From a virus, in the IMG/VR virus record IMGVR_UViG_3300024344_000012, positions 1 to 58,083 of that record: a stretch of DNA of 58,083 nucleotides, one strand, 5' to 3'. Below the pieces are notes generated by a model that saw only the letters and a program-made list of their open reading frames with translations, was not told the origin of the DNA and searched no databases. Both the position numbers and the translations under genes were made by a program. This document shows positions 10,186 through 30,062 of the stretch, piece after piece; positions within the stretch are counted from its first letter, which is position 1; each line of letters opens with the position of its first letter.

Positions 10186-11469
10186 GTGAAATTCATAGAG
10201 AATAGTTCGGAATTTAATGCTTTTTTGTACGAATATGAAGAAGCAAATGAAATTATCGCAATCCCCATTCCTACCGATCATAAAAAACATCCAGTAGAAA
10301 CAAAGTTATCCTTTCTTTTTTTATTAGTTGATGGTAGTGCATTTCTATTACCATACAATCATACCGATGCTATGTGTCTACAATTTGGTGATTTGAGGAT
10401 ACTCAATAATAAAAATAAATCATTATATACTCTTGATAAAAAACACACATATCATCTCACAAAATTAAACAATCTTATTGATGTAAATCTACTTAATTAT
10501 TGGAATACAGGTGAGAAAACTGATTTCGATTTGTATTCTGATGATATAATTCGCCATTATCATATGAAGCATCATGAGAAAAAAGATATAAATGCGTCTA
10601 TTCCTATAATGAGATTTACCTCACACCTGTACAAGATAGCAACAGGAATGCAGGTTATCGTCTCAAAATACGACACTCCTGACATCTTGACATACAATGA
10701 TGATATGTTTGACAACTTTACATACATTGAAAAAAATGGTTTACAAACAACCGATGGAGTGGTATATTCAGAGTACAATCCATTCACATCTACAGGTCGT
10801 CCATCCAATAGATTTGGTGGAATTAACTTTGCGGCACTAAATAAGAATGATGGTAGTAGAGAAAAATTCATTAGTAGATTTGGTGGTGAGGGTAAATTAG
10901 TTGAGTTTGATTATGATGCATATCACTTGAGATTGATTGCAGAGAAAGTGGATTATAAATTTTCAGATGAATCAGTTCACCAACATTTTGCGGACAGATT
11001 TGATATAAGTTATAAGGAAGCAAAAGGTCTTTCATTTCAATATTTATATGGTTTTATTCCTGATGATATAGCAGAGAGTATAGATTACTTTGGTAAGGTA
11101 AAGGACTTCACTAATAAACTATGGCAACTCTATAAGCAAGAGAATTTTATCAAATCAGATATTTATAGTAGACAAATAAGAGGAAATGATTTTAACGCAA
11201 ATAAGTTATTTAACTATTATATTCAGTTACTTGAGACAGAATCGAATGCATTAGTTATAAAGGATGTAAGAAAAATAATGGAAAAATATAAGAGTAAGTT
11301 TGTATTATATAGTTATGATTCGTTTCTGTTTGATATGCACATTGACGATGGATTACCACTTCTTACAGAAATAAAAGAAGTTTTAGAGAGAGGTAAGTAT
11401 CCAGTTAAAGCTGCGTGGGGAAATAATTATGATGAACTTATTGATATAACGGAGAAGTTTGTTGATTAA
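10186..11469 (+). CDS. Divergent family A (PolA-type) DNA polymerase domain protein
   Basis: A 427-residue protein starting at GTG, with AAGG about 8 nt upstream. The C-terminal half aligns by eye with the polymerase domain of DNA polymerase I: 'TSTGRPSN' at 201-208, motif A 'FDYDAYHLRL' with Asp242 (E. coli D705 position), 'SVHQHFADRF', an O-helix-like 'EAKGLSFQYLYG' keeping Lys280, Phe284 and Tyr288-Gly289, and motif C 'YSYDSFLFDM' with Asp378. Differences: the Glu after motif C is Ser, the O-helix Arg is replaced, and the motif A Glu is His. The first 180 residues could be a degenerate exonuclease fold, without clear DEDD residues. It lies among late genes, apart from the gp43 polymerase. 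Fold is confident; activity is uncertain. Confidence 0.7.
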   Translation: MKFIENSSEFNAFLYEYEEANEIIAIPIPTDHKKHPVETKLSFLFLLVDGSAFLLPYNHTDAMCLQFGDLRILNNKNKSLYTLDKKHTYHLTKLNNLIDVNLLNYWNTGEKTDFDLYSDDIIRHYHMKHHEKKDINASIPIMRFTSHLYKIATGMQVIVSKYDTPDILTYNDDMFDNFTYIEKNGLQTTDGVVYSEYNPFTSTGRPSNRFGGINFAALNKNDGSREKFISRFGGEGKLVEFDYDAYHLRLIAEKVDYKFSDESVHQHFADRFDISYKEAKGLSFQYLYGFIPDDIAESIDYFGKVKDFTNKLWQLYKQENFIKSDIYSRQIRGNDFNANKLFNYYIQLLETESNALVIKDVRKIMEKYKSKFVLYSYDSFLFDMHIDDGLPLLTEIKEVLERGKYPVKAAWGNNYDELIDITEKFVD

Positions 11470-12406
11470 ACTTAAAAATTTATTGATGGAATCCACTTAT
11501 GCACCCTCTAAACAAGCTGGGCCGAGTTGGATAGATAATAAGTGGTATCCTGCTCATACAAAATCCGTATTAAATTGGGTACGTAGAAAAGAATATATAC
11601 CTCTTACACCTGCAGTTGTGGAGAAAGCACTTGGTAAAAAGATACCTGTAAAATCATTTCACATTACAGGACCAGATGGAATAAGACAACTCAAAAATGT
11701 TCTTGGAAGAAAAAAATCCATATCTACGTTTACAGCAACTCACGAATCTGAAGCATTAGCTAAAGGTCGTGGTGTTCAAACAGGTATGGGTGGTGTTATT
11801 TGTTTTGTAGAGGGACATTTATTAGCACAAAGAAGTATGGATTTTGATACCGTACCTGATAAACAAGGTCGTAGATGGGTAAGTTCTTTTCACGTGTTTG
11901 ATAAGGATAAGATGATATGGACAAATGCTTTGAAAGCTGCAAAAATTGATTATGATTCTATTGATTCTAAATTGTTTAAAATAGAAAGAGAATATCACGA
12001 TAGATGGATGGACTTACCCCGAACTGATCCTAATCATCTTACATGGGAAGAGTATAAAAAAGAATCTAAAAAGGCACAAGGGCCTGTAGTTGCAAAATAT
12101 GTAAAAGATTTTATTGATGTGGCAAACAAAACTCTAATCAAACATAAAAAAATATTCAGAAAGAGTTTGATTGATTCTGATGTTAATAAAAAAAGTGCTT
12201 GGTGGAATGAAATTCTTGTTTATGATACAAAGATAATAGATATATTTGTAATGCAAAGAGTATTGGATAATAGTGTATTGGCTAAAGTTGAAATAGAAAG
12301 ATTATTATCAACAGCAAGTGGTAACAAACCAATAACTATTGGTTCACCTGCTCAGTTTAGAAAATGGTTCAAAGAACGAAAGGGTAAAATTCACAAGGGA
12401 CAATAA
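11459..12406 (+). CDS. Unknown protein with weak ADP-ribosyltransferase-like features
   Basis: A 315-residue protein starting at TTG inside the end of the polymerase-like gene (11-nt overlap). The block 'LKNVLGRKKSISTFTA' (about residues 76-91), followed by 'GVQTGMGGVICFVEGHLL' and, near residue 255, 'WWNEILVYDTKIIDIFVM', resembles the order of the beta-strand, S-[TS]-x-S and E-x-E-type elements of ADP-ribosyltransferases. The key glutamate motif is not exact. T4-like phages package and inject such enzymes (Alt), so a virion-carried host-modifying role is conceivable. Treat it as a hypothesis; a structural role is equally open. An alternative ATG lies at residue 9. Confidence 0.4.
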   Translation: MLIKLKNLLMESTYAPSKQAGPSWIDNKWYPAHTKSVLNWVRRKEYIPLTPAVVEKALGKKIPVKSFHITGPDGIRQLKNVLGRKKSISTFTATHESEALAKGRGVQTGMGGVICFVEGHLLAQRSMDFDTVPDKQGRRWVSSFHVFDKDKMIWTNALKAAKIDYDSIDSKLFKIEREYHDRWMDLPRTDPNHLTWEEYKKESKKAQGPVVAKYVKDFIDVANKTLIKHKKIFRKSLIDSDVNKKSAWWNEILVYDTKIIDIFVMQRVLDNSVLAKVEIERLLSTASGNKPITIGSPAQFRKWFKERKGKIHKGQ

Positions 12407-14572: not shown

Positions 14573-14995
14573 ATGAAAACACAACTATTAGCAACATTTT
14601 GCAAAAGAAATAGATTATACGAAACAATAGATTTGATTATAGCTTGTAACGATATAGTATTCGACAAGATATATGTATTTCAGAACGAAAACGATTATCA
14701 TCAATTGATATGTACATACAATGTAGAAGCAACTGATGACTATGTTGAAAGTTCAGTAGATACTATTTCCATACATAGAAAGAAACAATCAAATTCTTTA
14801 TACACAATTAATGCACTTAATGAGTTAGTTAAGAAACTAAACAATGGTGTATTAGATAATTCATTTCCAATACCCTGGGAGAACTACAGAAATCGCATGT
14901 TATTGACAAATGAAGAGGGACTATATGAAATACCAACAAGGGTATATTCAATAATCCACACAAAAACATGGAAATCTGATTTAGATGAAAAATAA
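14573..14995 (+). CDS. Conserved-looking small phage protein, function unknown
   Basis: A 140-residue protein starting one base after the previous stop. It is Asn/Tyr/Ile-rich, with two cysteines near the N-terminus (C10, C25) and a central 'LYTINALNELVKKLNNGVL' helix. It is the last gene before the gp32 promoter region, so it ends the late-gene block. I recognise no domain. Confidence 0.6.
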   Translation: MKTQLLATFCKRNRLYETIDLIIACNDIVFDKIYVFQNENDYHQLICTYNVEATDDYVESSVDTISIHRKKQSNSLYTINALNELVKKLNNGVLDNSFPIPWENYRNRMLLTNEEGLYEIPTRVYSIIHTKTWKSDLDEK

Positions 14996-15100: not shown

Positions 15101-15856
15101 ATGGATATTAACGCATTGAAGAAGCGTCTAGGTCAACTTCAAATCACAAACAATCGCACATCAAATCTTTGGAAGCCATCCCCTGGCACAACTCAAGTAA
15201 GAATCGTACCTTATAAATTTAATAAGGACAATCCTTTCATTGAATTGTTTTTCCATTATGATTTGGGTAGAAAATCTTATCTTTCACCAATGTCATTTGG
15301 TCGTCCAGACCCAATCGAAGAGTTTTCTCAAAAACTTAAAGCTTCGGGTAACAAGGAAGACTATCGTTTAGCTCGTAAAATCGAGTCTAAGATGAGAACT
15401 TTTGCTCCAGTAATCATTCGTGGTGAAGAAAGTCAAGGTGTGAAGTTTTGGGGTTTTGGCAAAACAGTTTATCAAGAACTGCTTTCCATTATCGCTGATC
15501 CTGATTATGGTGATATTACCGATCAAATGAATGGTCGTGATATTACTGTAGAGTTCAAGACAGCAGAAGAAGTTGGAGCTTCGTTTCCAAAAACAACAAT
15601 CAGGGTTAAACCAAATCAAACCCCGATTACAGAAGATGCAACTCTTCTTGAGAATCTAATGGACAACCAAAAGGATATTACTGAAATATATCAGGAACAA
15701 ACTTATGAGGAACTTACTGAAGTTCTGAATAATTGGTTAAATCCAGATGAATCTGAAGAATCGCAAGAAGAATCTGTAACTGAATCTAAAGCTTCACCTA
15801 AAGAAGAAGTTAAAGAGGATGTATCAGCAGCATTTGACGATCTGTTTAATAACTAA
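15101..15856 (+). CDS. 32: Single-stranded DNA-binding protein gp32
   Basis: A 251-residue T4 gp32 homologue. It coats single-stranded DNA during replication and recombination and contacts the polymerase, helicase loader and UvsX machinery. The N-terminal basic 'INALKKRLGQLQ' region fits the cooperativity domain. The core contains 'FFHYDLGRKSYLSPMSFGRP' and 'FAPVIIRGEE'. The C-terminal 40 residues are strongly acidic and end in 'DVSAAFDDLFNN', the usual protein-interaction tail. No cysteine is present, so the zinc site of T4 gp32 is missing. It is preceded by a good Shine-Dalgarno (AGGAGATATCT) and its own promoter-like block. Confidence 0.93.
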   Translation: MDINALKKRLGQLQITNNRTSNLWKPSPGTTQVRIVPYKFNKDNPFIELFFHYDLGRKSYLSPMSFGRPDPIEEFSQKLKASGNKEDYRLARKIESKMRTFAPVIIRGEESQGVKFWGFGKTVYQELLSIIADPDYGDITDQMNGRDITVEFKTAEEVGASFPKTTIRVKPNQTPITEDATLLENLMDNQKDITEIYQEQTYEELTEVLNNWLNPDESEESQEESVTESKASPKEEVKEDVSAAFDDLFNN

Positions 15857-15930: not shown

Positions 15931-17028
15931 ATGTCAACAAGAGACGATTTGGCAGGGCAACTTGCCGCTAGTCTAAATAAAACTTTTAAAGATACCAAAG
16001 TTGCATACTTTCTTGATGGTAGTGATACAACACCTACAGATATAAAAGAATTTATTTCTACGGGATCTACATTATTGGATTTAGCCATTTCAAATAGACC
16101 AAATGGTGGAATAGCAGTAGGTAGGATATCAGAACTTAATGGATTAGAATCAAGTGGTAAATCTTTAGTTGGTGCACATCTTTTAGCTGAAACTCAGAAA
16201 AAAGGTGGTGTAGCAGTCTATATTGATACTGAAACTGCAGTAAGTCAAGACTTTTTAAAAGTTATTGGTGTCGATATTAATAATATGTTGTATCTACATT
16301 TAGAAACTGTCGAAGATATATTCGCAGCAGTAGAAGAGATTGTGGCAAAAGTTAGAGAATCAGATAAAGATAGGTTAGTAACTATTCTTGTAGATTCACT
16401 TGCAGCTGCATCAACAAATGTAGAGATGGAAGCTGACTTTGATAAAGATGGTTGGGCTACATCAAAAGCAATTATTATTTCAAAAGCATTAAGAAAAATA
16501 ACTCAAATGATTGGTAGACAAAGGGTAGCTCTTGTGTTTACAAATCAGTTAAGACAAAAATTAGGTGTGATGTTTGGTGATCCTTGGACTACAAGTGGTG
16601 GTAAAGCATTACCATTCCACGCATCTACAAGAGTTAGATTGAAAAACAAAGGTCAAATCAAAGATAAAAAGAATCACGTTATTGGTATGACTATACTTGC
16701 ACAAGTTGTCAAGAATAGATTAGGTCCACCTTTGAGAAGTTGTGAGTTTCCTTTATACTTTGAGAGTGGTATTGATGATGTAGGTAGTTGGTTAAAAGTA
16801 ATGAAAGACCATAAGATTGTAAAACAAGCTGGTGCATGGTACACACTTACAGACCATTTAGGACAAGAACACAAATTTCAATCAAAAGAATTCGGTGATA
16901 AACTATCAGATCCAGATTTCAAATCATTCGTTTACGAACAAATATGTGATAAAGTTATACTAAAATATGATATGAAAGATTTGGGAATTGATGATGTAGT
17001 TGAAACGGAAGAGGTAGTTGGTGAGTGA
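15931..17028 (+). CDS. uvsX: UvsX recombinase (RecA-like strand-exchange protein)
   Basis: A 365-residue RecA/UvsX-family ATPase. It forms filaments on single-stranded DNA and drives strand invasion for recombination-dependent replication. The Walker A motif is GLESSGKS at residues 71-78, and the Walker B region is 'RLVTILVDSLAA' near 150. 'LVFTNQLRQKLGVMFGDPW' matches the RecA loop 2 region. The C-terminus is acidic. It follows gp32 as a co-regulated pair, with a strong AGGAGAAG ribosome site. Confidence 0.93.
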   Translation: MSTRDDLAGQLAASLNKTFKDTKVAYFLDGSDTTPTDIKEFISTGSTLLDLAISNRPNGGIAVGRISELNGLESSGKSLVGAHLLAETQKKGGVAVYIDTETAVSQDFLKVIGVDINNMLYLHLETVEDIFAAVEEIVAKVRESDKDRLVTILVDSLAAASTNVEMEADFDKDGWATSKAIIISKALRKITQMIGRQRVALVFTNQLRQKLGVMFGDPWTTSGGKALPFHASTRVRLKNKGQIKDKKNHVIGMTILAQVVKNRLGPPLRSCEFPLYFESGIDDVGSWLKVMKDHKIVKQAGAWYTLTDHLGQEHKFQSKEFGDKLSDPDFKSFVYEQICDKVILKYDMKDLGIDDVVETEEVVGE

Positions 17029-18089
17029 TGTCGAATGCCAGATACCTTTCCATCCTGAATGAGATAAAGAAAAAAGGTGGTTCTGTTAACTTTCAGAACA
17101 CAAACAAAAAAGTGCTAATAGTTGACGGCTTGAATACTTTTATAAGAGTGTTCAGCGTAATGCCAACTCTAAACGAAAACGGCGTTCATGTTGGTGGCAT
17201 TGTTGGTTTCCTTAAAAGCATAGGATTTGCCATTAATATGTTTAATCCCACCCGTACTATCATCGTGTTTGACGGTAAGGGTGGGAGCAATCGCCGCCGT
17301 AAATTATATTCCGATTATAAAAATAAACGTAGAACGTCTTATAGAGTTAATAGAGTAGCTGGATTAGAAAATGTAGAAGACGAAAGACGAAATATGTTAA
17401 TGCAACTTAGAAGAGTTGCAGACTATCTTGAATTATTACCACTAACTACTATATCTGTAGATGGTATCGAAGCAGATGATGCTATAGCTTATATCGCAAA
17501 GAGTGTAATACCTGATGGTGAAAAAGTAATTATGTCAACCGACAAAGATTTCCTACAATTAGTATCAGACGATATCAAAGTTTGGTCTCCCACTAAGAAA
17601 AAATTATACGACAAAGAAGCAGTTTTAGAAGAGTATTGTGTAACTGCAGAGAACTTTATTATGGCTAAAATATTTGAGGGTGATAAATCTGATAATATAG
17701 ATGGTGTAAAAGGAATAGCTACTAAAACATTAGTAAAAAATATACCAACTTTGGGAGAAGAGAATAATAATTATAGTTTACAGGAGATATATAAATACGC
17801 ACATAAACACAAAGATGATGATGGTAATTTCTTTGTCAAAATATTACAGAACAAAAAATTACTTGAACGAAATTATAAGTTGATGCAGTTAGAAGATGTA
17901 AACATAAGTGCTTCAACTAAAACTAAATTAATTGACACAATCAGAGGTCCTATCAGAAGATTAGTTAAATATAAATTCGAATCCATGTTCATGGAAGACA
18001 GATTATTTCAAAATCTACCTAATGTCAGTAGTTGGTTAGCTCAAACATTTACCACTATGGATAAATACGCGGAGCAAACTGATGGGTAG
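17028..18089 (+). CDS. rnh: RNase H / 5'-3' exonuclease (FEN family)
   Basis: A 353-residue 5' nuclease of the FEN/T4 RNase H family, which removes RNA primers and flaps from lagging-strand fragments. Metal-binding aspartates are visible in 'VLIVDGLNTFIR', 'IIVFDGKGGSNRRRKLYSDY', 'GIEADDAIAYIA' and 'VIMSTDKDFLQLV'. The helix-hairpin-helix-like region starts at 'GDKSDNIDGVKGI'. I place the start at the ATG at 17028, which overlaps the uvsX stop (TGATG). A GTG directly before it at 17025 is the alternative. The gene is translationally coupled to uvsX. Confidence 0.88.
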   Translation: MSNARYLSILNEIKKKGGSVNFQNTNKKVLIVDGLNTFIRVFSVMPTLNENGVHVGGIVGFLKSIGFAINMFNPTRTIIVFDGKGGSNRRRKLYSDYKNKRRTSYRVNRVAGLENVEDERRNMLMQLRRVADYLELLPLTTISVDGIEADDAIAYIAKSVIPDGEKVIMSTDKDFLQLVSDDIKVWSPTKKKLYDKEAVLEEYCVTAENFIMAKIFEGDKSDNIDGVKGIATKTLVKNIPTLGEENNNYSLQEIYKYAHKHKDDDGNFFVKILQNKKLLERNYKLMQLEDVNISASTKTKLIDTIRGPIRRLVKYKFESMFMEDRLFQNLPNVSSWLAQTFTTMDKYAEQTDG

Positions 18090-18264
18090 AAAAAAAATGT
18101 ATTTTACAGCAAAAGAGAAGAAAGAAGCTCAGAGAAAATGGCAAATGGATTACTACTACAGAAATAAAGATACCATTTTGAAGAAGATGAAAGATAAGTA
18201 TAGACAGAAGAAATTAAATTTATCCAAAACACAACTTACGAAAGACATATATGGAGAACAATAG
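18082..18264 (+). CDS. Small basic protein, possible nucleic-acid binder
   Basis: A 60-residue, very Lys/Arg/Tyr-rich protein overlapping both neighbours (8 nt with the nuclease, 14 nt with the helicase gene). The segment 'WQMDYYYRNKDTILKKMKDK' resembles short basic motifs often found beside HNH-type domains, but no HNH residues are present. Placement between nuclease and helicase genes suggests a replication accessory role, by context only. Confidence 0.6.
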   Translation: MGRKKMYFTAKEKKEAQRKWQMDYYYRNKDTILKKMKDKYRQKKLNLSKTQLTKDIYGEQ

Positions 18265-19627
18265 CTCTTTAGTTGAATTTGGAACATCATTCCAATCTAA
18301 AGTTATAGCATCATGTTTAATTGATTCTACATTCCTACAGACTATTATGGAAGTTCTTCAGCCAGAGTATTTTGAATCGGATTCAAATAAATGGTTAGTT
18401 CAAGAAATAAATAAGTATTTTCTAAAATATAAAACTACACCTACATTGGAAGCTATTAAGATAGCAGTTGATGATGTTGAGAATGATGTACTAAAAATAT
18501 CTGTTATAGAAGCACTTAAAGATGCTTGGAGACATAGAGAAGCAAATGATCTACAATTTGTTCAAGAAAAAACATTAGATTTCTGTAAAAATCAGGTTTT
18601 AAAATCTGCTATTATGGAATCTGTAACTCTATTAGAAAATCAAAACTATGATGGTATAAAAACAGTTATAGATACAGCTATGAAAGCTGGAACTGCTGTA
18701 GATATCGGTCATGATTATAATGTGGGTATTGAAGAGAGATTAACTAAGTCTACAAGAGTTACGATAAAAACGCCTTGGGATATCACAAATGAGATTATGG
18801 ATGGTGGTCTTGGTGAGGGTGAGTTAGGTGTTGTAGTTGCGCCAGCAGGTGTTGGTAAGACTTGGTTACTTCAGAGTATCGCTGCAGGTGCTTTGAAAAG
18901 AGGATTTACTGTAGTTCATTATACATTAGAATTGAATGAAACATATGTTGGTTTGAGATATGATACTGTTTTTAGTGGTATAACTACACAAAATATTAAG
19001 TTTCAAAAAGATGAAGTGAAGAAAATCATCGACTCTATTGAGGGTAAGATGATTATTAAATACTACCCAACAAGAGCAGCAACTGTCAATACACTTTCAG
19101 CACATCTAAAACAATTAGAACTAAAGAATATAAAACCTGATATGGTTATTGTTGATTACGCTGATATCTTGAGAGATAATAGTGGTATGAGAGAGGTAAG
19201 ACATCAGTTAGGTGCTGTATATGAAGATTTGAGAGGATTAGCTGGTGAGTTTAAAGTTCCAATATGGACTGCATCACAAGCAAATCGTTCAGCGTTAGAA
19301 GAAGAGGTGATAGAAGCAACAAAGATTGCAGAGGCATATAGTAAGATCATGATAGCTGATTTTGTATTGAGTATCAGTAGAAAAGCTGAAGATAAGTTAA
19401 GTCATACTGCAAGATGTCATATCATTAAGAATAGATTTGGTATTGATGGTATAACTTATCCAATGAGTATGAATACCAATCTTGGTAAGATAGAAATCTA
19501 TGAATCCACAACTGCACCAGGTAAAGAACAACAAGGTAAGATGGATAATAGTGAAGAATTTAAGAGAAAATTATTGGCAAGTAAGTATAATGATATGAAA
19601 AATAGTGAAGTCGAGGGCTTCGAATAA
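18251..19627 (+). CDS. 41: Replicative DNA helicase gp41 (DnaB family)
   Basis: A 458-residue hexameric DnaB-type helicase that unwinds the fork 5' to 3' and works with the primase. The N-terminal domain (1-150) is helical. The RecA-like domain has Walker A 'APAGVGKT' at residues 197-204, 'VVHYTLELNETYVGLRYD' as the H1a-like region, and Walker B 'DMVIVDYADIL' near 300. 'WTASQANRSALEEE' provides the sensor region. The start ATG lies inside the small basic gene, with TATGGAGAACA around it. The next gene is separated by a 120-nt gap with a hairpin. Confidence 0.9.
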   Translation: MENNSSLVEFGTSFQSKVIASCLIDSTFLQTIMEVLQPEYFESDSNKWLVQEINKYFLKYKTTPTLEAIKIAVDDVENDVLKISVIEALKDAWRHREANDLQFVQEKTLDFCKNQVLKSAIMESVTLLENQNYDGIKTVIDTAMKAGTAVDIGHDYNVGIEERLTKSTRVTIKTPWDITNEIMDGGLGEGELGVVVAPAGVGKTWLLQSIAAGALKRGFTVVHYTLELNETYVGLRYDTVFSGITTQNIKFQKDEVKKIIDSIEGKMIIKYYPTRAATVNTLSAHLKQLELKNIKPDMVIVDYADILRDNSGMREVRHQLGAVYEDLRGLAGEFKVPIWTASQANRSALEEEVIEATKIAEAYSKIMIADFVLSISRKAEDKLSHTARCHIIKNRFGIDGITYPMSMNTNLGKIEIYESTTAPGKEQQGKMDNSEEFKRKLLASKYNDMKNSEVEGFE

Positions 19628-21799: not shown

Positions 21800-24301
21800 A
21801 TGTATCAAAACATCTTTTATCAGTTTAAGAGACGAAGAATCCATATATGGGATGACAAGACTGGTTATTCAGTTCATCCATTCAGTCAATACGCCTATGT
21901 AAAAGATGGTAAGGGAACTCACACATCATTATATGGTGATAAGTTACGTAAATTACCTATCAGTAGAATAGATGAAACTGATACACCTTTTGAATCGGAT
22001 GTTGCACCAGAAATTAGGTTTTTGGTTGACAAATATACAGATTCAGATGAGGTATCTGAGGGTCATCGTGTTATGTTCTTTGATATTGAGGTTGAAGTTA
22101 CACAAGGTTTTCCTGATGTAAATAAAGCTGAAAATACAATTACATCTATCGCATTTTATGATGCACTAACAAGACAATACTATTGTTATGTTCTTGATGT
22201 AGAGAATAAGGTTAGTGCAAATCAGTTTGGTGAAACAACTGTCATTAAGTTCAAAGATGAAAGAGATTTACTAAAAGCATTCTATACAAAATATCTTGAG
22301 ATATCACCAACAATCATTAGTGGTTGGAATAGTGATAGATTTGACGTTCCATATCTATATAATAGAACTATAAGATTATTAGGACAAGAAGCTGCTAATT
22401 GTCTTTCACCAATTGGTATAGTAGAATTTCAAAAACATAGGGGAACATACAAGATTGCAGGTGTATCTTCACTTGATTATCTTGAATTATATAAGAAACT
22501 TACATTTGGTGAAAGGTCTTCATATCGTTTAGATGATGTTGGTGAGTTAGAAGTTGGATTGAAAAAAGTAGCTTATGACGGAACACTTAATGATTTATAT
22601 GATGGTGATAGAAACAAATTTGTAGAATATAATATAAATGACGTTATTATTCTTGAGAAACTTGATGCAAAGTTAGATTTTATTGGTATTGCTAGAGCTA
22701 TATGTCATTTGGGACACGTTCCTTATGAAGATGTTTATTACTCATCAAGATTTCTTGAGGGTGCTATTCTTGTTTATCTTAAAAAGGTTGGTATTGTAGC
22801 ACCAAATAAAGTTAGAGCAAACAGAGATTTGATGGGTGGTAATGATAAGTTTGCAGGTGCATATGTACAGGATCCACAAAAAGGTAAACACGAATGGGTG
22901 TATGACTTGGATATTACAAGTATGTATCCATCTATTATTATGAGTTTGAATATATCTCCTGAAACTAAATTAGGTAAGTTAGATAGCTGGGATGTAGAAC
23001 CATTTCTCAAAGGTGTTGACAGAACATATACTATTAAAGATAAGAATGGTAAAGAGAGTGCTAAACTAACTACAGGTGAGTTTCAAAACTTTTTGAAAGA
23101 CAATAATGTATCCATATCTTCTAATGGTGTATTATACACACAAGATAGAAAAGGTCTTATACCGACATTGTTAGAAAAGTGGTTTGACGATAGAGTTCAG
23201 TTTAGAAAGTTAGCTAAGAAGTTTGCTGATGAGGGTGATAAAGAGAAATATTCATACTTTGATAGACGACAATACATTCAAAAGGTTGTTCTAAACTCAT
23301 TGTATGGTGTGTTGGGATTACCTATATTTCGTTTTTATGATTTGGATAATGCAGAAGCAACCACAACAACGGGTGTAGAATTGATTAAATATACCAAGAG
23401 AATGTCTAATCATTATTATAATTCTACATTAGATGACAAAGAAGATTATTGTATTTACATTGATACAGATTCAGTTTTCTATTCTGCTATTCCTATCATT
23501 GAGAAGAAATATCCACACATAGATATTAAAGATGAAACTCTGATGACAAATAAAATCTTAGAGATTGCATCGGATGTTCAAAAGTATCTTAATGATTCAT
23601 ATGATCTATTCGCTCAAAAGTTTTGTAATGTAAATGAACATAGGTTTGAGATTAAGCAGGAATTAATTGCTAAAAGTGGATTATTTGTTACAAAGAAACG
23701 ATATGGTATGAAGATTATTAATGATAATGGTGTTAAGGTAAATAAACTTCATGTAAAAGGTTTGGATATTGTTCGTTCAAGTTTTCCTGTAGCATTTAAA
23801 GAGTGTTTAACTAAGGTATTGGAAGATATATTAGCAGATGTTCCTAACGAAAAGATTAGTGAATACATTCTTAACTTTAAGAAATCTATGAAACTGAAAA
23901 AATATGATACAATTGCTATGCCAACTTCAGTTAAAAATGTAAAGAAATTTATATCGATGGGTGAGGGTATTCTTATTGCTAAAAAGGGAGCTCCAGTTCA
24001 TGTTAAATCAGCAATCAATTACAATAACTTTTTGTTGATTAATAAATTGAATAGGAAATACCCATCAGTTGGTAATGGTGAAAAGATTAAGTGGACTTAT
24101 TTAAAAGATAATCCATTTAAGTTTGACACTATATGTTATAAAGGACATGAGGATCCACCACAAGTATTAAATTACATAAAACAATATATTGATACAGATA
24201 AGATTTACAAACAAGCACTTGCTAAGAAAGTCAAGATGTTGTATGAAGCATTAAAATGGGAAGAACCAAATGATGATTTTGGTTTTAATAAATTCTTTTA
24301 A
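21800..24301 (+). CDS. 43: DNA polymerase gp43 (family B)
   Basis: An 833-residue family B replicative polymerase with proofreading exonuclease. Exo I 'FFDIEVEV' is at 93-100, and an exo II-like 'GWNSDRFDVPYLYNR' is at 175-189. Polymerase motif A 'DITSMYPSII' is at 371-380, motif B 'KVVLNSLYGVLG' at 495-506, and motif C 'YIDTDSVF' at 553-560 with both catalytic aspartates. 'KKRYGMKI' follows near 635. It is slightly shorter than T4 gp43 (898). The extreme C-terminus ends in 'FGFNKFF', consistent with a clamp-binding peptide. Expressed from its own promoter at 21739. Confidence 0.96.
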   Translation: MYQNIFYQFKRRRIHIWDDKTGYSVHPFSQYAYVKDGKGTHTSLYGDKLRKLPISRIDETDTPFESDVAPEIRFLVDKYTDSDEVSEGHRVMFFDIEVEVTQGFPDVNKAENTITSIAFYDALTRQYYCYVLDVENKVSANQFGETTVIKFKDERDLLKAFYTKYLEISPTIISGWNSDRFDVPYLYNRTIRLLGQEAANCLSPIGIVEFQKHRGTYKIAGVSSLDYLELYKKLTFGERSSYRLDDVGELEVGLKKVAYDGTLNDLYDGDRNKFVEYNINDVIILEKLDAKLDFIGIARAICHLGHVPYEDVYYSSRFLEGAILVYLKKVGIVAPNKVRANRDLMGGNDKFAGAYVQDPQKGKHEWVYDLDITSMYPSIIMSLNISPETKLGKLDSWDVEPFLKGVDRTYTIKDKNGKESAKLTTGEFQNFLKDNNVSISSNGVLYTQDRKGLIPTLLEKWFDDRVQFRKLAKKFADEGDKEKYSYFDRRQYIQKVVLNSLYGVLGLPIFRFYDLDNAEATTTTGVELIKYTKRMSNHYYNSTLDDKEDYCIYIDTDSVFYSAIPIIEKKYPHIDIKDETLMTNKILEIASDVQKYLNDSYDLFAQKFCNVNEHRFEIKQELIAKSGLFVTKKRYGMKIINDNGVKVNKLHVKGLDIVRSSFPVAFKECLTKVLEDILADVPNEKISEYILNFKKSMKLKKYDTIAMPTSVKNVKKFISMGEGILIAKKGAPVHVKSAINYNNFLLINKLNRKYPSVGNGEKIKWTYLKDNPFKFDTICYKGHEDPPQVLNYIKQYIDTDKIYKQALAKKVKMLYEALKWEEPNDDFGFNKFF

Positions 24302-24354: not shown

Positions 24355-25086
24355 ATGGATAAACAAACGTTGATGGGATTTGTCAACAGGTTTTACTTGG
24401 GTGGTCAGACACAATCTGCACCTGTAGTTTCAACAAAGGACACACTTAGTTGTTCATTCATCAATTCAGCAAAGAGTTGTGTTGGTGATATTGTTCTGGC
24501 TAAGAATGGTTTCGGTGATTATGAAATGGGTCTCTATGAGATTCAAGACTTAATCAAGTTACTTAATGTCGTAGATGGTGAGTTGGTTGTTGAAGCTAAT
24601 GAAGTTGGTGATGTAGTGTCTCAATTGGTCATCAAACAAAAAAGCAATAACACTAAAGTTAATTATGGGTTAGCCCGTCTTGATGTGGTTTCCAAGAAGC
24701 CAGATTTGACGAATGTTCCTGATTTTGATTTAGAATTAAAATTAGATAAACCATTCATCAGTTCTTTTATATCAGGTAAAGGCGCTTTAAGTGATGTTTC
24801 TACTTTCGCAGTCTTATCAGATGGTGTAGAAGCAAAGGTTGTTATTGGTTATAGTTCAACTACTCAATCAAACAAGGTAACTATTCCTGTAGAAGCCAAA
24901 AAAATGTCTTCTCTTGATGATGCTATCTTTTTTGATGCAGATACTTTCAAAGAAGTTCTAACTGCAAATAAAGATTGTGAATCAGCAACTCTTTATGTTT
25001 CAAGTCAAGGTTTGGCTAAAGTCAGTTTTAAGGTGGATGATTTCGATTCAAGTTACGTGTTGGTAGCTAAAACTACTGTAGACTAA
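24355..25086 (+). CDS. 45: Sliding clamp gp45
   Basis: A 243-residue trimeric processivity clamp of the T4 gp45 family. It tethers gp43 to DNA and, in T4, also activates late transcription. Recognised from the overall pattern (length close to T4's 228, beta-rich, 'LSCSFINSAKSCVGDIVLA' near the start, and 'YGLARLDVVSKKP' in the middle) and from its position between gp43 and the clamp-loader genes. The AAAGGAG Shine-Dalgarno is 7 nt from the ATG. The stop TAA overlaps the next ATG by one base. Confidence 0.85.
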   Translation: MDKQTLMGFVNRFYLGGQTQSAPVVSTKDTLSCSFINSAKSCVGDIVLAKNGFGDYEMGLYEIQDLIKLLNVVDGELVVEANEVGDVVSQLVIKQKSNNTKVNYGLARLDVVSKKPDLTNVPDFDLELKLDKPFISSFISGKGALSDVSTFAVLSDGVEAKVVIGYSSTTQSNKVTIPVEAKKMSSLDDAIFFDADTFKEVLTANKDCESATLYVSSQGLAKVSFKVDDFDSSYVLVAKTTVD

Positions 25087-25850
25087 TGGAAAACTATGTA
25101 GATAAATCAAAAGTTTATCTGCAGGAAATAGATAAAAAAACTGCTAAGAGAATAATAGAAAAAAATCATTATTCTCATAAATTTTCTTCTTGTAGATATG
25201 CCATAGGTATATTTCACAAGTCAGATAATCCACATCCTTTTTTTAAGGATATGAGTGAAGAAAAACTTGTTGGTTGTATGACTTATGGCTATCCTGTAGG
25301 AAGATCAGTAATGGGTTCTATTTTTAAAGATGAAAATATCTTGCAGACAAAGAATATTTTGGAGTTGACAAGATTATTCATACATGATGGTTATGGAAAG
25401 AATATAGAATCTTATTCTATATCACAATCATTCAAGTGGTTGAAAAAGTATGATGAGGATGTTAAGGTACTAATCAGTTATGCAGATCCTGATAGATTAC
25501 ATTTGGGTGGTATTTACAAAGCTACCAATTGGTTATATCAAGGTGCAGGATTGAATTTGATGCCAAATCATTCGATATCGTTGACTAATCCATATGAGTG
25601 GATACATAGTAGAACTGTATCAGCTACTTGGGGAAGTCATAATGTAGATAAGTTGAAAGCAGCTATAGGACACACATTTTGGAGAAGAAAAGAACCTGAA
25701 AAACATCGTTACATTTATTTCATAGGAAATAAAAAAGAAAATAAAAAATTTATGAAGAACTTAAAATATGAATCTAAACCATATCCTACAGATCCAGAAC
25801 AATATGTTCCACCTGTAGAGGAGATTGTAGTTGATACAAAATTTAAATAA
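25086..25850 (+). CDS. Mom-like GNAT protein, copy 1 (putative adenine modification)
   Basis: A 254-residue protein coupled to gp45. It has the hallmarks of Mom-like GNAT-fold proteins: 'EKNHYSHK' near residue 27, 'KLVGCMTYGYPVG', 'ELTRLFIHDGYGKNIES' and 'VLISYADPDRLHLGGIYKA'. Mu Mom converts adenine to N6-methylcarbamoyl-adenine and so protects DNA from restriction. It aligns along its whole length with the protein at 29430-30062, so these are two divergent paralogues in one phage. Modification of phage DNA is inferred from the family. An RNA or protein acyltransferase remains possible. Confidence 0.65.
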   Translation: MENYVDKSKVYLQEIDKKTAKRIIEKNHYSHKFSSCRYAIGIFHKSDNPHPFFKDMSEEKLVGCMTYGYPVGRSVMGSIFKDENILQTKNILELTRLFIHDGYGKNIESYSISQSFKWLKKYDEDVKVLISYADPDRLHLGGIYKATNWLYQGAGLNLMPNHSISLTNPYEWIHSRTVSATWGSHNVDKLKAAIGHTFWRRKEPEKHRYIYFIGNKKENKKFMKNLKYESKPYPTDPEQYVPPVEEIVVDTKFK

Positions 25851-28956: not shown

Positions 28957-29437
28957 ACGAAAAGGTGTATTTGATTATTTAAATCAAATCACAAAATATC
29001 AAAAGAGAGGATTTTGGGAATCACTTTCTGATGAAGATAAAAAGGGTTGGTCTACATTTCTTGTAAACCGATTCTTATCAATGAGATCAGATTTCCTACC
29101 CATAGTGAATGAGGTTCAGAAATATAATTTGAAGCCTGAATTGATATACAAAACGTATATGGATATCATTCCAAAAGGAAATTACTACTTGAGGTACATC
29201 AAGGGAAAGAAGAAGAAAAATATGGATCACCCACAATGGATGATAAATGTAGTTCGTAATGACTTAGAGGTTAGTGTTAGAGAAGCAGTTGATGCTATTG
29301 AAATGTATATGCTAACTGAAGCTGGTCAGATGGAACTATCAGATATGTTACAAAAATATGGTGTAGAAACAAAACAACTTAAATCAGTTGGTTTGTATTT
29401 CGAATCAGACGGTACAGACATAAGAACAATTGCCTGA
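28931..29437 (+). CDS. 62: Clamp loader small subunit gp62
   Basis: A protein of about 168 residues that matches marine T4-like gp62, the partner of gp44 in loading the clamp. Visible blocks are 'GVFDYLNQITKYQKRGFWES', 'WSTFLVNRFLSM' and 'DIIPKGNYYLRYIKGKKKKN', the last resembling the 'VPRGK' loop of T4 gp62. I prefer the TTG at 28931 as start because the protein then begins 'MAKKKQTVKRKG'. The ATG at 28868 would overlap the zinc-ribbon gene by 89 nt. Position after gp44 supports the call. Confidence 0.78.
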   Translation: MAKKKQTVKRKGVFDYLNQITKYQKRGFWESLSDEDKKGWSTFLVNRFLSMRSDFLPIVNEVQKYNLKPELIYKTYMDIIPKGNYYLRYIKGKKKKNMDHPQWMINVVRNDLEVSVREAVDAIEMYMLTEAGQMELSDMLQKYGVETKQLKSVGLYFESDGTDIRTIA

Positions 29438-30062
29438 TTTTAAAGACTATACAGTTGAGGTAGTTCCTCGTATGGCTATACAAGAGTTTATACATAAACA
29501 TCACTATAGTCATAACACCAATGGAATACAAGGTTTGGAGTGTTTTGCATTATTTGCTCCAGGTCATTTTGGTATTCCAAAAATGGTAGGTGCTATGATG
29601 TATGCCATACCATCTATGCCAAATACTGCAAAAGCATACAATCCCATAAATCCAGATAGATGTGTAGAATTAAGAAGATTAGTTTGTATTGATGATACAC
29701 CAAAGAATGCAGAAAGTTTTTTCATAGGTAAAACTATAAGATGGTTAAAACAAAATACAAATTATGAAGTTATAATTTCATTTGCAGATAAAGAACATGG
29801 GCATACAGGAGTTATTTATAGAGCTAGTAATTTTGAGTTTATTGGTGAAACTGGTGCAGGTAGAGTTTTGATGGTAGATGGTAAGGAATATCATAGTAGG
29901 TCTCTAAGTCAACCAATCAAACCATATAGTAGAAGAATTCGTGCAAGATGGGAAGCTAAGGATCCTGATGTATTTTTCAGAAAAAGGAAGAGTAAAAACA
30001 GATATGTTTATTACTTGAATAAAGGTATTAAAAAGAAGATAGAAAGATTAAAAAAGGCTTGA
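29430..30062 (+). CDS. Mom-like GNAT protein, copy 2 (putative adenine modification)
   Basis: A 210-residue Mom-like protein beginning at TTG inside the end of gp62. 'HKHHYSHNT' (residues 22-30), 'MVGAMMYAIP', 'ELRRLVCIDDTPKNAESFFI' and 'VIISFADKEHGHTGVIYRAS' match Mom-like GNAT proteins. The copy at 25086 has the same motif order. The ATG at residue 15 would remove a segment shared with that copy, so TTG is preferred. The C-terminus is strongly basic, consistent with nucleic-acid contact. The stop codon lies within the -35 box of the next promoter. Confidence 0.68.
   Translation: MPDFKDYTVEVVPRMAIQEFIHKHHYSHNTNGIQGLECFALFAPGHFGIPKMVGAMMYAIPSMPNTAKAYNPINPDRCVELRRLVCIDDTPKNAESFFIGKTIRWLKQNTNYEVIISFADKEHGHTGVIYRASNFEFIGETGAGRVLMVDGKEYHSRSLSQPIKPYSRRIRARWEAKDPDVFFRKRKSKNRYVYYLNKGIKKKIERLKKA

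Follow-up and report, generated by a model that had tools for sequence, protein, structure and literature searches.

To our knowledge, a single DNA polymerase suffices in the textbook replisome of phage T4; the question raised by the present locus is what a second, short polymerase does in a T4-like phage. The window, which is the entire record of a marine virus (58,083 bases) and probably a fragment, encodes a gp43-type family B DNA polymerase, the replicase, at positions 21800–24301 (plus strand; Pfam DNA_pol_B E 4e-36, exo1 E 4e-21). It also encodes a 427-residue protein at 10186–11469 (plus strand), whose ORF begins with a GTG codon preceded by AAGG and which is annotated here as a short, divPolA1-like family A DNA polymerase from its ORF, structural model, match to Bst Pol I, hhalign comparison, active-site residues and dN/dS. 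Bulk replication is an unlikely role for this protein, as the original prediction had argued.

Taken alone, the 427-residue protein has no match in Pfam, and neither a single-sequence phmmer search nor the A1 profile gave a match among PDB sequences; a match to PHROG 2573 (E 0.034) is too weak by itself. Membership of family A follows from three independent lines of evidence. First, an hhalign comparison between a profile of 37 relatives and one combining E. coli Klenow fragment, T7 gp5 and two phage PolAs returns a probability of 97% (E 1e-10), against 0.2% for an unrelated control profile; Pfam DNA_pol_A (PF00476) is moreover matched by 7 of the 37 relatives (best E 3e-11), and the member from Flavobacterium phage immuto scores above the curated cut-off of that family. 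Second, the top PDB matches of an AlphaFold2 model of the protein (pLDDT 88) are all family A DNA polymerases, with Pol theta and Pol nu among the best; the closest is the large fragment of Bst Pol I (Z 27.1, rmsd 3.5, 383 of 427 residues), on whose residues 301–875 the model superposes from position 1 to 418. Third, the motifs pair one to one with those of Klenow in the alignment, for which the MAFFT register (DYDAYHLR matched to DYSQIELR) was used, since hhalign introduces a gap that puts motif A one column out of register. Judged from sequence and predicted fold, the ORF product is a divergent family A polymerase. The prediction of a second, short polymerase of this family beside gp43 is thereby borne out, both by the profile search and by the near whole-length structural match to Klenow-type enzymes, the comparisons that had been proposed for checking it.

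The match to Klenow begins at the first strand of its exonuclease and ends at the last strand of its palm, and the domain plan of the protein is, on alignment and model, that of a minimised Klenow fragment: an apparently inactive, vestigial exonuclease (residues ~1–160) precedes a palm and shortened fingers (~188–420), and the thumb is missing after residue ~187. Where Klenow reads ERNGV, about 100 residues and then GRVHTSY, the window protein has EKNGLQTTDGVVYSEY. No conserved residue of the relatives aligns with the catalytic acids of the exonuclease. An N-terminus too short and divergent for a normal exonuclease domain had been expected; it is indeed degenerate and inactive, but the region does correspond to the exonuclease domain of Klenow, and the part that is missing is the thumb. 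With the large fragments of E. coli and Bst Pol I the protein shares its whole-chain fold and the equivalents of D705, D882, K758, F762, Y766, R668 and Q849. In contrast to Klenow, it is without a thumb and an active 3′–5′ exonuclease, the 5′ nuclease is a separate gene, and five residues are exchanged: His stands for E710, Tyr for both R754 and H881, Ser or Ala for E883 and Asp for S707.

Conservation of these sites was scored over 166 distinct related sequences, with per-site totals of 160–165. Arg205 of the TGR motif (codon 10798–10800, plus strand; Klenow R668) is arginine in all 160 relatives that have a residue there, and the motif A metal ligand Asp242 (10909–10911, plus strand; D705) is found in 161 of 161. 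Motif C, at 11317–11322 (plus strand), pairs Asp378 (D882; 165/165) with Ser379 at the position of E883, which is serine in 138 and alanine in 27 of 165 relatives. Within the O helix, encoded at 11011–11052 (plus strand), Lys280 (K758), Phe284 (F762) and Tyr288-Gly289 (Y766-G767) are invariant or nearly so; with Gln347 (Q849) present in 164 of 165 sequences, both the TGR motif and the Q849 equivalent, minor-groove residues of DNA-type family A members, are in place. Asp242, Asp378 and the O-helix Lys, Phe and Tyr-Gly are the residues that had been singled out from the window sequence, and the whole-chain superposition suggests that the two aspartates converge. The departures from Klenow are no less uniform. 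Tyr276 stands for R754, a tyrosine in 161 of 162 relatives, and turns the start of the otherwise retained RxxxKxxxFxxxYG motif into YxxxK; His247 (10924–10926, plus strand) occupies the ribonucleotide-gate position of E710 in 161 of 161; tyrosine replaces H881 in 165 of 165; and Asp244 (10915–10917, plus strand; S707), an extra motif A carboxylate, is shared by 160 of 161. The loss of the O-helix arginine and of two acidic residues, also foreseen, corresponds to Tyr276, His247 and Ser379, respectively.

Together with a dN/dS of 0.07–0.17 between close relatives, these fixed departures point to a functional protein whose active site has been remodelled, and not to one in decay. As alternate residues of a strand face the same side, Asp244 may sit beside Asp242; most speculatively, it could replace the lost third carboxylate (E883), and, just as speculatively, His247 could alter selection against ribonucleotides. 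A different product altogether is conceivable but highly improbable, namely RNA made by a family A-derived RNA polymerase: motif C, YDS or YDA, is similar to the HDS of T7-type RNA polymerases, and the E710 gate is replaced. An RNA polymerase was also an option considered by Yutin et al. for the divPolA2 proteins (PMC11348598). The window protein, however, retains the TGR motif and the equivalents of Q849 and F762 as in DNA polymerases, a promoter-binding domain is absent, and the listed top structural matches are all DNA polymerases.

The gene does lie at the border of the baseplate genes, as originally described, with tail and baseplate genes on its 5′ side (T4_baseplate domain at 223–978) and a gene of this block ending 26 bp before its start; its conserved linkage, however, is with the replication genes downstream, in distant phages such as immuto as well. 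It is followed by genes for a 315-residue and a 721-residue protein and then by that of a 140-residue protein (14573–14995, plus strand), a candidate partner that always accompanies the short polymerase. Beyond it are encoded a gp32-type single-stranded DNA-binding protein (15101–15856, plus strand; Pfam gp32 E 6e-14), a UvsX/RecA recombinase (15931–17028, plus strand), a Pol I-type 5′–3′ exonuclease that is the counterpart of T4 RNase H (17025–18089, plus strand; Pfam 5_3_exonuc_N E 5e-32) and a gp41/DnaB-type replicative helicase (18251–19627, plus strand); a B12-type ribonucleotide reductase also belongs to this downstream block. The polymerase gene is the head of the replication block and is not inside the structural block. 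A count of TATAAATA as T4 late promoters gave no signal (16 occurrences, 13.6 expected). The 5′ nuclease is closer to that of E. coli Pol I (77.5 bits) than to T4 rnh (40 bits), so that the two halves of a Pol I are encoded in the block by separate genes. Elsewhere in the window, a Mom-type DNA-modification protein is encoded at 25086–25850 (plus strand; Pfam Mom E 6e-47) and a second protein, Mom-like by eye, about 4 kb downstream at 29430–30062 (plus strand), giving one phage two Mom-like genes.

Relatives of the short polymerase occur in at least 580 virus contigs. Six GenBank phage records contain relatives that are 29–32% identical to the protein across no less than 89% of its length, namely four of Flavobacterium phage immuto, Microcystis phage Mel-JY01 and the 484-kb record LR756508, and the 140-residue protein is encoded in the same six; a seventh record, of Roseobacter phage CRP-3, matches weakly and through its ordinary polymerase. 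Cellular genome contigs yielded a single match, on a contig of a metagenome-assembled genome labelled Flammeovirgaceae (CAJXAT010000086.1, L085; 36% identity), which may in fact be phage DNA that was binned with a bacterium. A cellular origin, for which this possibly viral contig is the sole support, was rejected.

The gene order short polymerase, 140-residue protein, gp32, UvsX, 5′ nuclease and gp41 is recurrent and extends to immuto and Mel-JY01; in immuto, the short polymerase lies two genes 5′ of those for SSB, RecA, 5′ nuclease and helicase. The 140-residue protein is encoded in 105 of 105 short-polymerase loci with at least 6.5 kb of downstream sequence and, conversely, the short polymerase in 24 of 24 loci seeded on the 140-residue protein with at least 4 kb upstream. 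Of the 25 gp41-seeded loci whose contigs extend 6.5 kb or more upstream, 21 contain the short polymerase, the other four contigs starting too close to show it, and UvsX and the 5′ nuclease are found in 51 of 51 gp41-seeded loci. These counts make the short polymerase a core gene of its clade; as a single clade is concerned, co-occurrence demonstrates a shared core and not by itself a shared reaction. The replicase is a separate protein, a PolB being detected in 13 of 16 records (the T4 control among them) and a full-length PolA in immuto.

That the protein is instead carried in the virion and injected, or is a catalytically dead structural domain, had been entertained on account of its position 26 bp 3′ of a baseplate-side gene, beyond which nothing speaks for it. 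Both versions are very unlikely and we do not retain them: linkage to replication genes is fixed (105/105 and 51/51), catalytic residues are invariant, purifying selection is strong, and the short polymerase is without the N-terminal KLKxLL tag, itself a candidate packaging signal.

The tag is an observation in its own right. The pattern [IVLAM]KLKxLLx[ED] (for example MIKLKDLLTE) has 39 distinct N-terminal occurrences in 11 unrelated protein families, is never internal in the loci examined, and may, by analogy with T4 internal proteins, be a capsid-targeting signal. The ORF of the tagged window protein (11459–12406, plus strand) overlaps the stop codon of the polymerase gene; the tag was also seen at loci L177, L262, L318, L043, L359, L360, L081 and L395.

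The 140-residue companion, immediately 5′ of gp32, is highly conserved and carries the motif HRKK...N.LYT.NALN. Its predicted model (pLDDT 90) has the pattern beta-alpha-beta-beta-beta-alpha-beta-beta and no significant match among solved structures (best Foldseek E 0.18; VIA Z 5.8, ACT/ferredoxin-like), values too weak for the fold to be named. An OB-fold single-stranded DNA-binding protein was considered and rejected, the predicted model being not OB.

Proteins of this kind have been described before. Yutin et al. (2024; PMC11348598) reported divPolA1 from 14 phages, including immuto, as a polymerase with conserved palm, truncated thumb and inactivated exonuclease that is encoded beside a regular polymerase and followed by replication genes, and suggested that it takes part in replication and keeps polymerase activity; in a full-text literature search, the name divPolA1 did not turn up outside that paper and the corresponding preprint. 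The window protein is 29% identical to immuto divPolA1 (tblastn E 3e-46, 89% of the query), and has in common with it the dead exonuclease, the truncated thumb, the catalytic residues of the palm, the downstream replication genes and its status as second polymerase. From this resemblance in sequence, the window gene is a new and divergent relative of divPolA1, and the family as such is already published. In contrast to divPolA1, the thumb is wholly gone in the clade of the window, which is known here from uncultivated virus contigs only, and Mel-JY01 and LR756508 are outside the list of 14 divPolA1 genomes (PMC11348598). What the present analysis adds is the size of the family and its universality in marine T4-like phages, the Mel-JY01 and LR756508 members, the fixed active-site changes, the complete absence of a thumb from this clade, the 140-residue companion that is always linked and an examination of a possible primase role; as far as we could find, the fixed substitutions, the companion and the primase question have not been described for divPolA1.

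Other reduced family A polymerases offer more distant comparisons. The divPolA2 of barbaviruses is likewise a second divergent PolA beside a PolB, without exonuclease domain or usual thumb, but has an unrelated N-terminal domain and a variable gene neighbourhood, unlike the family of the window (PMC11348598). The TV-Pols (Iyer et al. 2008) are also minimal family A polymerases of mobile elements and viruses; they differ in possessing a thumb module, D5-type helicases and RxxxK in the fingers, whereas the window family is thumbless, reads YxxxK there and is linked to a helicase of DnaB/gp41 type.

A functional precedent to be weighed comes from SCC elements, whose CcPol-MP, a reduced family A polymerase paired with a single-stranded DNA-binding protein, acts as a primase (Bebel et al. 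2020, Rice 2023; PMC7581432, PMC10061031). CcPol has a short thumb and inactive exonuclease, and an SSB-type protein and a helicase are encoded alongside; the short polymerase is similarly encoded 5′ of gp32 and gp41 and could, by this parallel, make primers and start strands de novo with its SSB partner. Absence of DnaG would be expected if it were the primase, and a 216-kb record (G001) initially appeared to be such a case. DnaG-type primases were found, however, in immuto, Mel-JY01, LR756508 and record G004, and relatives of DnaG in at least 580 virus contigs; no Prim-Pol was found in the primase search. CcPol also keeps E710, where the short-polymerase family has histidine, and its partner MP, encoded directly downstream, is a predicted OB fold, whereas in the window block the SSB is gp32 and the linked 140-residue protein is not OB in its model. 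Relatives that encode a short polymerase, in contrast to the CcPol-MP system, have a DnaG of their own. In related contigs, the DnaG slot follows the baseplate and fibre genes and precedes a gene of ~1053 codons; G001 stops at the fibre genes and lacks DnaG as well as any match to the latter gene, so that its lack of a primase is best explained by the end of the contig. Most of the other virus records examined do not extend as far upstream as the DnaG slot, and DnaG negatives there mean little. Because relatives encode their own DnaG, the short polymerase need not be the sole primase, a role that was rejected; a primer-making function in the manner of CcPol-MP is unlikely, although an additional priming activity is conceivable.

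Some observations were made in passing on these genomes. The ~1053-residue protein encoded after DnaG resembles SbcD/gp47 by eye. The T4-like record G001 (IMGVR_UViG_3300009104_001210) breaks at the fibre/DnaG slot; its lack of primase and recombination-nuclease genes seems to be an assembly artefact that might mislead surveys of gene content. The DnaG-type primases of LR756508, Mel-JY01 and G004 (L349, L351, L352) are without the zinc-binding cysteines of the immuto and T4 enzymes (compared with L164:42402-43319).

On balance, and with slightly better than even confidence, we favour a catalytically competent, exonuclease-dead and thumbless enzyme of the divPolA1 kind that is accessory to phage replication and recombination, being neither replicase nor primase. 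The genome would be copied by gp43 and primed by DnaG, and the short polymerase would add short patches on gp32-coated DNA with low processivity and no proofreading, for instance by filling gaps once the linked Pol I-type 5′ nuclease has removed primers, or, alternatively, by extending recombination intermediates or ends on such DNA; the grip on DNA that normally comes from the thumb could be supplied by the 140-residue protein, by gp32 or by both. The restriction to short patches follows from the lack of thumb and proofreading, which should make the polymerase distributive; a truncated thumb makes Pol I less processive and less accurate (work cited by Rice 2023). A caveat to this accessory role is that the losses of R754 and E883 might leave very weak synthesis.

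The leading rival, ahead of primase-like activity and RNA polymerase, is a translesion or repair polymerase whose remodelled, non-proofreading site copies past damage or mismatched recombination ends, and we give it a modest chance. The dead exonuclease, the replacement of the O-helix arginine and of E710, the proximity of UvsX and the high rank of Pol theta and Pol nu in the structural comparison are all compatible with it; the theta/nu match is nevertheless unspecific, since every family A polymerase matches the model, the sequence has no sign of lesion recognition, and strict presence throughout the clade exceeds what would be expected of an accessory repair gene. A more elaborate form of the favoured accessory role, which we regard as doubtful, would be a split Pol I, in which the short polymerase, the 5′ nuclease and the 140-residue companion work on gp32-coated DNA as a dedicated complex for primer removal and replacement beside gp43, the companion replacing the thumb and the active site combining a metal site of Asp242, Asp244 and Asp378 with a histidine gate. 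The pairing with the 5′ nuclease is a circumstantial one, as it derives from co-occurrence within one viral clade. In T4, gp43 and the 5′ nuclease carry out primer replacement alone, and the same could hold in these phages.

In summary, a large group of marine T4-like phages retains a second polymerase, a stripped-down enzyme of family A, as a constant element of the replication block, and the main interest of the protein lies in its function and in its unusual, strictly fixed active site. Knowledge of its role would reveal where in phage replication an enzyme without thumb or proofreading is required, and would also test how far a family A polymerase can be reduced and whether histidine can serve as the gate in place of E710.
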